Shown here: one piece after another, positions 36,702 to 63,660 of the stretch
How the letters are laid out: every line of letters starts with the position of its first letter
How positions within the stretch are numbered: the stretch's first letter is position 1
Source: an uncultured Desulfovibrio sp.
GTDB taxonomy: Bacteria > Desulfobacterota > Desulfovibrionia > Desulfovibrionales > Desulfovibrionaceae
Assembly: GCF_944324525.1 (NCBI RefSeq)
Contig: NZ_CALUWS010000002.1
Location: 87,289-151,288 of the forward strand
Reading direction: 5' to 3'
DNA length: 64,000 bases
Notes under the pieces: generated by a model
Databases searched by the model: none
What the model was told of the DNA's origin: nothing
What the model saw: the letters and a program-made list of their open reading frames with translations, nothing else
Translations under genes and position numbers: made by a program

Positions 36702-36778
<77 letters not shown>

Positions 36779-52639: not shown

Positions 52640-52785
52640 AGCATTTTCACTTTGAAACGCGTTGCGTTTCAAACCATACGGCCTGGCGTTTCGCGGAAAA
52701 AAACCATTTTTTCCGCGCACTTTGGGCCGGGCGGCGCTGTGCTGCCGCTTCACGTTTCACCACCTTTTTCAAAGGTGAAACGCTC
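52639..52785 (+). repeat. Family A repeat (full length, well preserved)
   Basis: 147 bp from GAGCATTTTCACTTTGAAAC to AAAGGTGAAACGCTC. All parts are visible: a perfect first hairpin TTTGAAACGC-GTT-GCGTTTCAAA, CATACGGCCTGGCGTTTCGC, the A-run/T-run second hairpin, the GGCGGC third hairpin, and a last small hairpin GTTTCACC...AGGTGAAAC. Its first G is the last base of the TAG stop of the TPR gene. Confidence 0.88.
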
Positions 52786-52816
52786 CAACAACAAGCCCCC
52801 CGGGCGGACGATCGCC

Positions 52817-52900: not shown

Positions 52901-53198
52901 CCTGAGCGACACACTATTCGTTGTCTGTTTTGGGGGAAGGGGAAGCCCTCCGCCTGCGCGGGAGGTGTCGCTCTGCTGTCGATGCCCGTAAGGCTCCTGC
53001 ATCGCCTGACGGGCACGGCCCTGCGGGCCTCCATTCGGTCGCTCCCTTCCGCCTATGCCTCCCATCCCTTCCCCAGCGCGCTTTTACCGTGGGAAGAGCC
53101 GGAACACAGGGCATGCCCGGCCAAAAGACAGGCGGAGCATGCACAGATTCAAATTACCTATTGAAATTATTTATAAAATTTATATTAACAGGCCCTAG
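52901..53198. mobile_element. Family B element, degraded copy with one intact end
   Basis: About 298 bp in the opposite orientation to the 62330 copy. The right end ATTAACAGGCCCTAG is intact; the left end (GCGACACACTATTCG) is eroded. Inner matches include TGGGGGAAGGGGAAGCCC, CTCTGCTGTCGATGCC and one hairpin unit: GCCCGTAAGGC-TCCTGCATC-GCCTGACGGGC. AGCGCGCTTTTACCG and the AT-rich end (TATTGAAATTATTTATAAAA) are also shared. Only one hairpin unit is present where the complete copy has two. Confidence 0.8.
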
Positions 53199-56879: not shown

Positions 56880-57061
56880 ACGCATTACGCTTTTTGAGGA
56901 GGCCCCTTTGCGCTGCCGTCAATGTCCGTAAGGTCCCTGCGCCGCCTAACAGGCACGGCTCTCTGGGCTGCCGTCAATAAGGAGAATCTCTTCCTTTTGG
57001 GACGGGGCTCCTCGTATCCCCGCTTCCCCCAAATAAGAACGAACAGCGTCGGCAGGCCCTA
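56880..57061. mobile_element. Family B element, degraded copy at the acyltransferase 3' end
   Basis: Matches to the complete copy, in reverse orientation: TGCCGTCAATGTCCGTAAGG, CCCTGCGCC and GCCTAACAGGCACGG (a hairpin unit), CCCCGCTTCCCCCAAATAAG, and the end GGCAGGCCCTA. The final CTA (57059-57061) is the complement of the acyltransferase TAG stop. The left end cannot be fixed; before it lies a TTGAGGGG/CCCCTCAA hairpin (56824-56851). The hairpin arms combine those of the two different units in the complete copy. Confidence 0.6.
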
Positions 57062-62125: not shown

Positions 62126-62190
62126 CGTCACACGCGGGGAGAGCCCAGGTGCGGCGGTCTGCCTCCCGGCCTGTCCCGGTCGTCCGTTAG

Positions 62191-62328
62191 AGCGTTTCAC
62201 CTTTGAAAAAGGTGAAACACGAGGCGGCGGCACAGCGCCGCCCGGCCCAAACCAAGCGGAAAAACCGCGTTTTTTTCGCGAAACGACAGGCCGTGTTTGC
62301 AACGCAACGCGTTTCAAACGGGAAATGC
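62191..62328 (-). repeat. Family A repeat (inverted, full length)
   Basis: 138 bp from GAGCGTTTCACCTTTGAAAA to GTTTCAAACGGGAAATGC. It includes the small terminal hairpin GTTTCACCTTT/AAAGGTGAAAC, the GGCGGC core and the A-run/T-run hairpin (GGAAAAACC, GGTTTTTTT-type arms). The expected last bases (TCT of GCTCT) are replaced: family B begins two bases later at CTAG (62330). Confidence 0.82.
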
Positions 62329-62329
62329 C

Positions 62330-62743
62330 CTAGGGCCTGTTAACACAAATTTTACAGATAATTTCAATAGATAAAACAAGTAAACTGTACACGCTCCGCT
62401 TGATTTTGGGGACGGGGTCGCCACATTTCCCTGCCTCTTCCCCGGTAAAAGCGCGCTGGGGAAGGGATAGGGGGCTTGGGGGGAAGGATGGCGAGAACGC
62501 CTTTTCTCGCTCCGCTGCGAAAAGGCTGGGCCTCCCGCGCCGGCGGCGACCGAAAGGCGGCCCGGAGGGCCGTGTCCGTTAGGCGACGCAGGAGCCTTAC
62601 GGACATCGACAGCAGAGCGCGACCGAAAGGCGGCCCGGAGGGCCGTGCCTGTTAGGCGACGCAGGAGCCTTACAGGCATCGACAGCAGAGCGCGGGGTTC
62701 CCCTTCCCCCCAGCAGGCGGCAAATAGTGTTAACAGGCCCTAG
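62330..62743. mobile_element. Family B element, complete copy (MITE-like)
   Basis: A 414-bp non-coding element with perfect 17-bp terminal inverted repeats: CTAGGGCCTGTTAACAC (62330-62346) and GTGTTAACAGGCCCTAG (62727-62743). The outer CTAG/TA fits insertion at CTAG with TA duplication, as known for IS630- and some IS5-family elements. No transposase is encoded. Inside are an AT-rich end (62347-62390), the G-rich block shared with other copies, and two 73-bp tandem hairpin units. The right-hand CTA (62740-62742) is the complement of the TAG stop of the DMT gene. Confidence 0.88.
62546..62691. repeat. Two 73-bp tandem units with covarying hairpins
   Basis: Unit 1 (62546-62618) and unit 2 (62619-62691) are identical except in one hairpin. 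Unit 1 pairs GTCCGTTAGGC with GCCTTACGGAC; unit 2 pairs GCCTGTTAGGC with GCCTTACAGGC. Both stems surround the same nine-base loop GACGCAGGA. Changes at stem positions 2 (T-A to C-G) and 4 (C-G to T-A) keep pairing. A second hairpin GGCCC-GGA-GGGCC lies in each unit. Confidence 0.85.
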
Positions 62744-63660
62744 TTCGTCCGGGGCCGGGCAAAGGCCAGCAGGGCCACGCCGAGGACCAGCAGACCGATG
62801 CCGCAGCAGTCGGCTGTGGAAACATCCTCGCCAAGCAGGAAGATGCCCCAGCAGGCGGCGGCAAGAGGTTCGGCAAGGGCCAGCGTAGCCGCTGTCGCCG
62901 CCGGGGTGCGCGCCAGCCCGGCCGTGGTCAGGCTGAAGGCCAGCGCCGCGGTGACCACCCCCAGATAGAGGGCCGTGCCCGCACCGGCTGCACTGGCCAG
63001 CCAGCCTATGGGAAAAAGCAGCAGCATGGGCAGCAGCAGCGTGCCGCTCAGGCCGCACAGCATGAGCATGACGCTGTCCGGCGTGAAGCGGACGCCCAGC
63101 GGCTTGCTGAAGACGAAATAGCAGGCATAGCCCGCACCGGCCGCCAGCGGCAGGACCAGCCGCTGCCAGTCCGCCGATGTCCCCTCGCCCAGATTAAGAC
63201 AGACGAGCCCCGCCAGCGCCAGCGCCGTGGAGGGATACCAGAGCAGCGCCGGACGTTCGCCCAGCACGGCCCAGGCCAGCAGCGCGGCCACCAACGGCGA
63301 GAAGCCGATGGCCACCACCGTGCCCACGGCCACGCCCGCGAGCTGCACCCCTTTGAAAAAACAGATTTGGAAGGCCACCAGTCCCAGCGCGGCAGGGAGC
63401 ACCCAGCGCAAGGGCCATTCCCCCAGCCGCGGCAGCCTGCCCCGGCAGGCGCACCAGGCAAACAGGGCCAGCGCCGCGACCTGCATGCGCAAGGCCCCGA
63501 TGACGTACGGCGTCGCCCCTTCGGGAGCAAAGGCCTGCGCCGTGCCTGAGGTACTGAAACAAAGCGCCCCCAGCAGCACCAGCACCGCGCCGCTGGAGCC
63601 CGCTTTTTGCTGCTCAGGGGGAGAACCATTGCCGGGGGAAGGAGACGGTGATCTGTTCAC
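62740..63660 (-). CDS. DMT-superfamily (EamA) transporter
   Basis: A 306-residue inner membrane exporter with ten hydrophobic segments in two EamA repeats (VLLGALCFSTSGTAQAFAP starts the first; LVLPLAAGAGYACYFVFSKP starts the second). EamA proteins export amino acids or other metabolites; the substrate is unknown. Translation probably starts at GTG 63660. The hydrophilic N-terminus (about 23 residues) is Pro/Ser/Gly-rich. Its TAG stop belongs to the terminal repeat of the family B element, so the insertion probably set or trimmed the C-terminus (LLAFARPRTN). Confidence 0.88.
   Translation of the reverse strand: MNRSPSPSPGNGSPPEQQKAGSSGAVLVLLGALCFSTSGTAQAFAPEGATPYVIGALRMQVAALALFAWCACRGRLPRLGEWPLRWVLPAALGLVAFQICFFKGVQLAGVAVGTVVAIGFSPLVAALLAWAVLGERPALLWYPSTALALAGLVCLNLGEGTSADWQRLVLPLAAGAGYACYFVFSKPLGVRFTPDSVMLMLCGLSGTLLLPMLLLFPIGWLASAAGAGTALYLGVVTAALAFSLTTAGLARTPAATAATLALAEPLAAACWGIFLLGEDVSTADCCGIGLLVLGVALLAFARPRTN

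Follow-up and report, generated by a model that had tools for sequence, protein, structure and literature searches.

The window, that is, the whole 64,000-nucleotide stretch of DNA that we analyzed, contains a miniature inverted-repeat element holding two tandem units, a second copy of this element with a third unit, and the relic of a further unit. These features are listed below by position and strand, followed in brackets, where given, by the evidence for them.

62331-62332: left TA target duplication
62333-62740, plus: miniature inverted-repeat element, 408 bp, holding units 1 and 2; terminal inverted repeats GGGCCTGTTAACACAA (62333-62348) and TAGTGTTAACAGGCCC (62725-62740)
62546-62618, plus: unit 1, 73 nt, allele TA,CG (repeat search, allele table, DNA fold)
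62547-62549, plus: closing stem P1 of unit 1, 5' side CGA, with its partner TCG at 62606-62608 (DNA fold, P1 variants)
62550-62557, plus: mini-hairpin H0 of unit 1, CC-GAAA-GG (DNA fold, junction parse)
62558-62572, plus: hairpin H1 of unit 1 with a GNA triloop, CGGCCC-GGA-GGGCCG (alignment, covariation, DNA fold, junction parse)
62573-62605, plus: hairpin H2 of unit 1 with a T.T mismatch, TGTCCGT T AGGC ... GCCT T ACGGACA (alignment, covariation, DNA fold)
62609-62618, plus: single-stranded tail of unit 1, ACAGCAGAGC (aligned rows, DNA fold)
62619-62691, plus: unit 2, allele CG,TA, anatomy as in unit 1 (repeat search, alleles, DNA fold)
62620-62622 with 62679-62681, 62623-62630, 62631-62645, 62646-62678 and 62682-62691, plus: P1, H0, H1, H2 and tail of unit 2
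62741-62742: right TA target duplication, which together with the last base of the element makes up the TAG stop codon (62740-62742, minus) of a 306-aa ORF at 62740-63660 (minus)
52972-53042, minus: third unit, allele CG,CG, with a C.T mismatch, in the second element copy
53183-53193: one terminal repeat of the second element copy, the other end of which has decayed
56913-56974, minus: decayed unit relic with stem mismatches (profile match)

Units 1 and 2 are direct repeats that are 95% identical and, as a preliminary description of this DNA had claimed, they differ within a stem in a paired manner: the four differing letters (TGTCCGT/ACGGACA in unit 1 vs TGCCTGT/ACAGGCA in unit 2) are both partners of base pairs 30-58 and 32-56. 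That description placed a third version of the stem at position 52901. The version exists (TGCCCGT/ACGGGCA), but it belongs to the unit at 52972-53042 on the minus strand; we read position 52901 as lying near the decayed far end of the second element copy. The mid-stem mismatch, said to stay unpaired in all three versions, is indeed unpaired in each, but its letters differ, being C.T in the third unit and T.T in the tandem pair.

In its own genome (2.9 Mb), the unit occurs in at least 56 places by nucleotide search (40 of 139 candidates scored) and in at least 150 copies by covariance model R1 (150 of 150 scored candidates matched), a model built from 35 sequences that we chose for diversity. 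Of the 79 genomes of the genus, 43 contain a match at E<=0.001, in some cases a single weak one. A class-wide sample gave matches in 70 of 297 genomes, which represent 14 of 53 genera; all 70 belong to one family, in which 13 genera besides the unit's own match. Among the matches listed for the exact H2 core in named records, at least 99 stretches come from Desulfovibrio assemblies, several of them with chicken-gut names. The plasmid and phage records searched (72,556 and 50,697, respectively) gave zero matches to the unit, and a plasmid or phage origin of the repeat was therefore dropped. Several contigs of the unit's own assembly start or end within the repeat (e.g., C68, C26, C42 and C62), so that the counts of copies and the lengths of arrays are probably too low. 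An eight-unit tandem array, seven units of which have equal model scores, is found at L283:1501-2082 of the single-contig genome G092. Among the open-access papers listed for Desulfovibrio, none has a title or an opening of the abstract that describes such a repeat.

The carrier has the properties of a MITE: pairs of terminal inverted repeats were found by search, the target duplication is TA, and the ORFs within the element are 60-153 aa long. Among the listed copies of the ends, no two stood out as spaced by about 1 kb, as an autonomous transposon with these ends would have them. Its ends read GGGCCTGTTAACACWA, and TA|TA flanks are present at 17 of 39 complete copies from the same and related genomes. 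Counted by the tail motif, 11 copies of the element have no unit (a class that includes divergent element copies), 13 have one, 14 have two and 1 has three. In five elements the unit is cleanly absent, four times at GGCGG|AGGGG and once a base off, and one empty copy is identical to a filled copy at 165 of 178 positions over the left 180 bases. On a scaffold tree of 32 elements, the six labelled as empty require 6 changes, as do 1347 of 2000 label shuffles; that is, they do not cluster. By reading, the unit in other species stands alone or in other palindromic surroundings, and H2-only units there occur singly or as spaced pairs in mixed orientation. These observations fit a module that is gained and lost independently of the carrier element, while simple deletion by slippage, through short GCG repeats at the unit ends, is possible. 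The scaffold contains a second presence/absence module, a hairpin of the form ACGCCTTTTCTCGC...GCGAAAAGGC (about 62488-62531), in 9 of the 32 carrier elements listed (of 34), the others lacking it. Separately, a second palindromic repeat family, GAGCGTTTCACCTTTGAAAAAGGTGAAAC..., adjoins both element copies of the window (62190-62330 and 52640-52790), and ends like CAAAATGCTCTA precede several unit-bearing element copies elsewhere, as though the border of one element served as the insertion site of the other.

Covariation was analyzed on the 412 matches that a profile search found in 255 sequences (254 loci and the window). Of these, 397 were aligned, comprising 363 distinct units; the H2 stem is complete, by profile alignment, in 261 units. 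Most paired variation is concentrated at 30-58 and 32-56. In the 35 diverse units of our choice, 93.4% of cells pair compared with 87.3% in shuffles, and 11 of 19 pairs have changed on both sides, a number reached by 0 of 500 shuffles. In an alignment of 141 model-aligned matches (122 distinct), which was fitted to the structure with the exception of P1, two-sided change is seen at 17 of the 19 pairs (224 cells vs 46 in shuffles), and slid controls are 30-51% paired. We also applied a tree-based null (20 simulations), in which the substitutions per branch were kept and their positions drawn anew with the column rates as weights. Judged by this null, base pairs take the first three ranks among column pairs in the same-genus set and the first four in the cross-genus set. 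A covariation test had been proposed in the preliminary description, and the two pairs that differ between the window units come out first (32-56, E 0.0) and second (30-58, E 0.3) of all column pairs in the same-genus set, which together with the allele counts given below speaks against a chance origin of the paired difference; across genera, pairs 29-59 and 30-58 reach E 0.0. Pairs 17-23, 38-50 and 28-60 have E values of 0.1 to 0.45, and E<0.05 is attained by 1 of 19 pairs within the genus and 2 of 19 across genera.

H2 is part of a larger structure. When folded with DNA parameters, each window unit forms a junction in which P1 (CGA/TCG) closes H0, H1 and H2 with zero unpaired junction bases, followed by the tail; RNA parameters give a different fold without H0. 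Since the alignment model had no P1, this stem provides an independent test. A perfect junction was parsed in 84 of the 141 rows, with P1 as CGA/TCG in 77, CCA/TGG in 5, CTA/TAG in 1 and CGC/GCG in 1; the seven rows other than CGA/TCG are drawn from five genomes. Among the 50 rows whose tail does not start with TCG, 7 match P1, a modest number; random 3-mers match 0.34 rows on average and never more than 3 in 500 draws. Shuffling the tails over all rows gives a mean of 52 and a maximum of 59 against the observed 84, which is a weak control because TCG dominates. The other 57 rows include 14 with a TCG tail, and most of the remaining 43 look H2-only by eye; in locus L300 a CTG/CAG closing stem is visible by eye where the strict parse fails. 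Of the 84 parsed rows, 63 have a GNA loop in H1, and with 37 inferred substitutions the N of this loop varies more than any other column of the unit. When any perfect upstream hairpin is counted, one is found in 79 of 141 rows, 69 of them with triloops, of which 51 are GNA. The fit is poorer for H0, where 32 of the 84 parsed loops are of the GNA or GNNA type and 36 are GGAT or GAAT. From reading the listing, the tail is usually ACAGCA or AGAGCA and is conserved on one side of H2. The pyrimidine mismatch of H2 is conserved in the same-genus set: in the 261 complete stems it is TT in 241 and CT in 18, and it is unpaired in 259.

Taking together the cross-genus covariation, the paired changes in the closing stem and the conserved mismatch, selection for structure, in RNA or single-stranded DNA as the preliminary description had it, is well supported. 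The hairpin with the paired changes forms a single arm of a four-way junction, and repeats with this junction make up a conserved family in Desulfovibrio and its relatives; thus the earlier interpretation holds as to structural selection but took one arm for the whole.

As to which nucleic acid is selected, the whole junction is predicted with DNA energies for 41 of 66 units on the plus strand and 35 of 66 on the minus strand, vs 1 of 66 and 4 of 66 with RNA energies; these are distinct units pre-selected for the junction parse, and the outcome rests on energy models, which differ between DNA and RNA for reasons of their own. GNA and GNNA loops with at least two G-C pairs are described as exceptionally stable DNA mini-hairpins (PMC4686876). 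Because of the plus-strand difference and because the H1 loops are mostly GNA, single-stranded DNA would fit better than RNA as the selected form.

A structured RNA is nevertheless a serious, though less likely, alternative: after transcription, the unit could act as a noncoding RNA or as a hairpin module in a 3' untranslated region, with an effect on the stability or processing of the RNA. Such a role has been proposed for BOX and BIME repeats, and compensatory change, tandem modules and a conserved tail are all typical of RNA motifs. On the plus strand G.U exceeds A.C across genera (54 vs 35 pair-by-locus events) and, when counted by cells, within the genus (32 vs 17 in H2, 15 vs 11 in H1). 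As pair-by-genome events, however, the same-genus counts are even (11 vs 14 in H2, 12 vs 10 in H1), and the wobble counts single out neither strand clearly. The near-absence of the full junction under RNA energies also speaks against this alternative. Rfam 15 places only a tRNA of the window (36705-36778) above the gathering threshold and nothing in the unit, and a permissive search of six loci returned 10 matches, all under threshold; a known Rfam RNA family was thereby rejected. A sigma-70 promoter and terminator scan of the element found 0, which says little, as shuffles give 0.1 and 1.1. CsrA sequestration by GGA loops, a further candidate, was rejected because the H2 loop is unconserved in other species.

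The position of the arrays relative to genes also counts against a transcribed module. Of 125 arrays with enough flank, 87 lie between predicted ORFs and 38 inside ORF calls, a split to be read with the crudeness of the ORF caller in mind, many of the ORFs enclosing the 38 arrays being short or on the opposite strand. Relative to the unit, the upstream and downstream genes of the 87 arrays are oriented -/- in 33, +/- in 25, +/+ in 20 and -/+ in 9, that is, 33 antisense, 25 convergent, 20 sense and 9 divergent, with no sense preference to the neighboring genes; just 20 of 87 stand between two sense genes. In 58 of the 87, the gene downstream of the unit has its 3' end toward the unit.

Another possibility is that the unit acts in double-stranded DNA as a cruciform site: the four-way junction would be bound by a nucleoid or repair protein, and this binding would be the reason why copies are retained or spread. 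The shape is that of a small Holliday-like junction, and both strands fold nearly equally with DNA energies, as the counts above show. Moreover, replication-strand bias was rejected: the arrays split 58:58 with respect to fork direction in four single-contig genomes (G143 being represented by the 35 listed of its 54 matches). This symmetry agrees with a cruciform site and counts against the single-stranded DNA reading, as lagging-strand transposition of single-stranded DNA would predict a bias. With its tail conserved on one side of H2, however, and with no link found between the copies and places that need a junction protein, we consider a cruciform site unlikely. Genome G006 has 26 of its 32 unit arrays on a single replichore, mostly at 1.5-2.55 Mb, and in G089 the corresponding figure is 16 of 21.

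The history of the stem versions bears on two further explanations. In the 261 complete stems, the allele is CG,CG in 139, CG,TA in 53 and TA,CG in 53, with a mismatch at one or both pairs in 16, and TA,TA is not seen. Because the TA,TA type is missing, the three versions look like old alleles shuffled among copies rather than the product of many fresh double changes; a counter-selection against the weakest stem is the other possible reason for its absence. If the alleles are old, the difference between the two window units is not necessarily the trace of recent compensation. Adjacent units (71 pairs) have the same allele in 43 cases and different alleles in 28. Nine of the allele-differing pairs have at most 2 other differences, and in 4 of them, including the window pair, the change is paired, whereas in 5 it is confined to a single arm (two of these five share one unit). 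A recent stem change thus passes through mismatched intermediates, and single-arm changes are then as common as paired ones. The preliminary description had named equally common single-arm and paired changes as grounds for abandoning structural selection; this state is nearly reached for the most recent changes, but not for the family as a whole. Over the tree built from unpaired columns, both sides of pair 32-56 changed on 21 branches and one side on 7, and for pair 30-58 the numbers are 21 and 14. At the inner pairs 38-50 and 39-49, two-sided and one-sided branches number 1 and 27, and 0 and 24, respectively, partly because the length of the inner stem varies. A short-loop variant of H2 (e.g., TGCCTGTTAGGCCGTAAGGCCTTACAGGCA) recurs with the CG,TA allele (L061:1574-1640, L233, L241 and L242), and in L138 it occurs with a mixed pair.

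It could be asked whether the modules are passive hitch-hikers, multiplied by the terminal-repeat element and by slippage, with covariation that reflects a few ancient alleles. The three alleles, none with TA at both pairs, are in agreement with this idea, as is the tree that includes the stem columns, on which only 3 + 3 substitutions are inferred at pair 32-56 and 7 + 8 at 30-58; slippage would also be expected to alter the tandem copy number. But changes in the stem, the loop and P1 recur in other genera and contexts with the fold kept, and we regard hitch-hiking as very unlikely. The least probable explanation, and the alternative offered in the preliminary description, is quasi-palindrome correction by template switching, which would keep the arms identical without selection and account for paired changes without intermediates, as the excess of two-sided branches would allow; such copying should have removed the mid-stem mismatch, single-arm intermediates do adjoin near-identical units, P1 shows paired changes with arms about 56 nt apart, and the absence of TA,TA fits few old events better than frequent conversion, so that this explanation is not supported.

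Among known systems, the unit works most like the REP/REPIN repeats mobilized by RAYT (TnpA-REP). These are dispersed high-copy imperfect hairpins with a conserved internal mismatch and a conserved single-stranded flank (PMC8266576), features that the unit shares; with its copy number and imperfect H2, it is likewise a high-copy dispersed imperfect palindrome. It is not filed as REP because two defining tests fail. The GTAG/CGTC tag is absent, the flank after H2 usually being GACAGC or GAGAGC (112 distinct sequences, by reading), and a linked RAYT gene was not found near units in the 13 genomes searched. In addition, a REP is one hairpin, whereas the unit is a four-way junction of 71-73 nt in head-to-tail tandems, and inverted dimers of the REPIN type were rejected: the orientation is inverted in 11 of 20 spaced neighbor pairs (from selected loci with weak matches included), which is not an excess. 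REP-like families without a dedicated transposase do exist, namely the CGTC-tagged palindromic repeats of the Di Nocera type (PMC3733652, the main text of which has zero mentions of Desulfovibrio), from which the unit differs in having no CGTC tag at the stem base. In architecture, the element resembles the pneumococcal BOX, whose ends enclose a variable number of tandem boxB modules that are present or absent (PMC3049150), but the Desulfovibrio module is also found outside its carrier in other species. The BrickBuilt MITE of Porphyromonas gingivalis similarly contains tandem minisatellite units within an inverted-repeat element, but its units measure 23 nt (PMC4596501). The end hairpins of IS200/IS605 are alike in that hairpins with unpaired bases are recognized as single-stranded DNA (PMC8266576).

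Y1 transposase genes are present in 8 of 13 unit-bearing genomes (28 matches). Within flanks of up to 1.5 kb at 20 of these 28 loci, there was no credible unit (best E 0.91), which sets the unit apart from the IS200/IS605 end hairpins; the flanks contained one loose CCGTT...TTACGG string. Five Y1 proteins that we checked are of the IS200/IS605 TnpA type, and 0 of 5 reach the RAYT cut-off, so that linkage to RAYT was rejected. G017, a genome that is 99% complete, has units and zero Y1 matches. Matches to RVT_1 occur in 3 of 8 unit-bearing genomes, none of them in the unit's own, which rules against a reverse-transcriptase-dependent element. Integron attC boxes follow the pattern RYYYAAC ... GTTRRRY. 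The H2 sequence GTTAGGC ... GCCTTAC is similar to it in the unit's own genome, but elsewhere the inner stem varies by reading (GTTCCCG, GTTAGTG and GTTGCGA), and attC was rejected.

Based on these results, we propose, at what we would call even chances, that the 73-nt unit is a dispersed noncoding REP-like mobile repeat that is selected as folded single-stranded DNA and handled by a putative enzyme. The selected form is the better-supported half of this proposal, and we infer the mobility by an enzyme. The information of the unit would lie in its fold. The data show that the four-way junction and tail are kept across genera by paired changes and that, in the species group studied here, the unit is a removable module, present in 0 to 3 copies at one site of a TA-inserting terminal-inverted-repeat element. 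The carrier would probably be moved by a separate putative TA-specific transposase. By analogy with TnpA-REP, which recognizes a bulge and GTAG, a putative trans-acting enzyme that processes single-stranded DNA may recognize the mismatch hairpin and the tail. Source copies would be selected for the fold and dead copies would decay, and paired changes would therefore arise in two steps via mismatched intermediates; new alleles may then spread by copying and recombination. A more specific and more doubtful version is that the unit, as a 73-nt cloverleaf of single-stranded DNA, is inserted and excised with precision at a fixed site in unrelated carriers, by a putative single-stranded DNA recombinase that recognizes the junction itself.

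Interspersed bacterial repeats are usually handled as simple palindromes. The repeat family described here amounts to a large natural data set whose covariation reveals the fold, down to the GNA loops and the 3-bp junction stem, and the evidence from the fold suggests that the form under selection is folded single-stranded DNA. If the proposal of a REP-like mobile repeat is true, it predicts a new enzyme in Desulfovibrio that handles single-stranded DNA, and the spread of REP-like repeats without RAYT would become directly testable.
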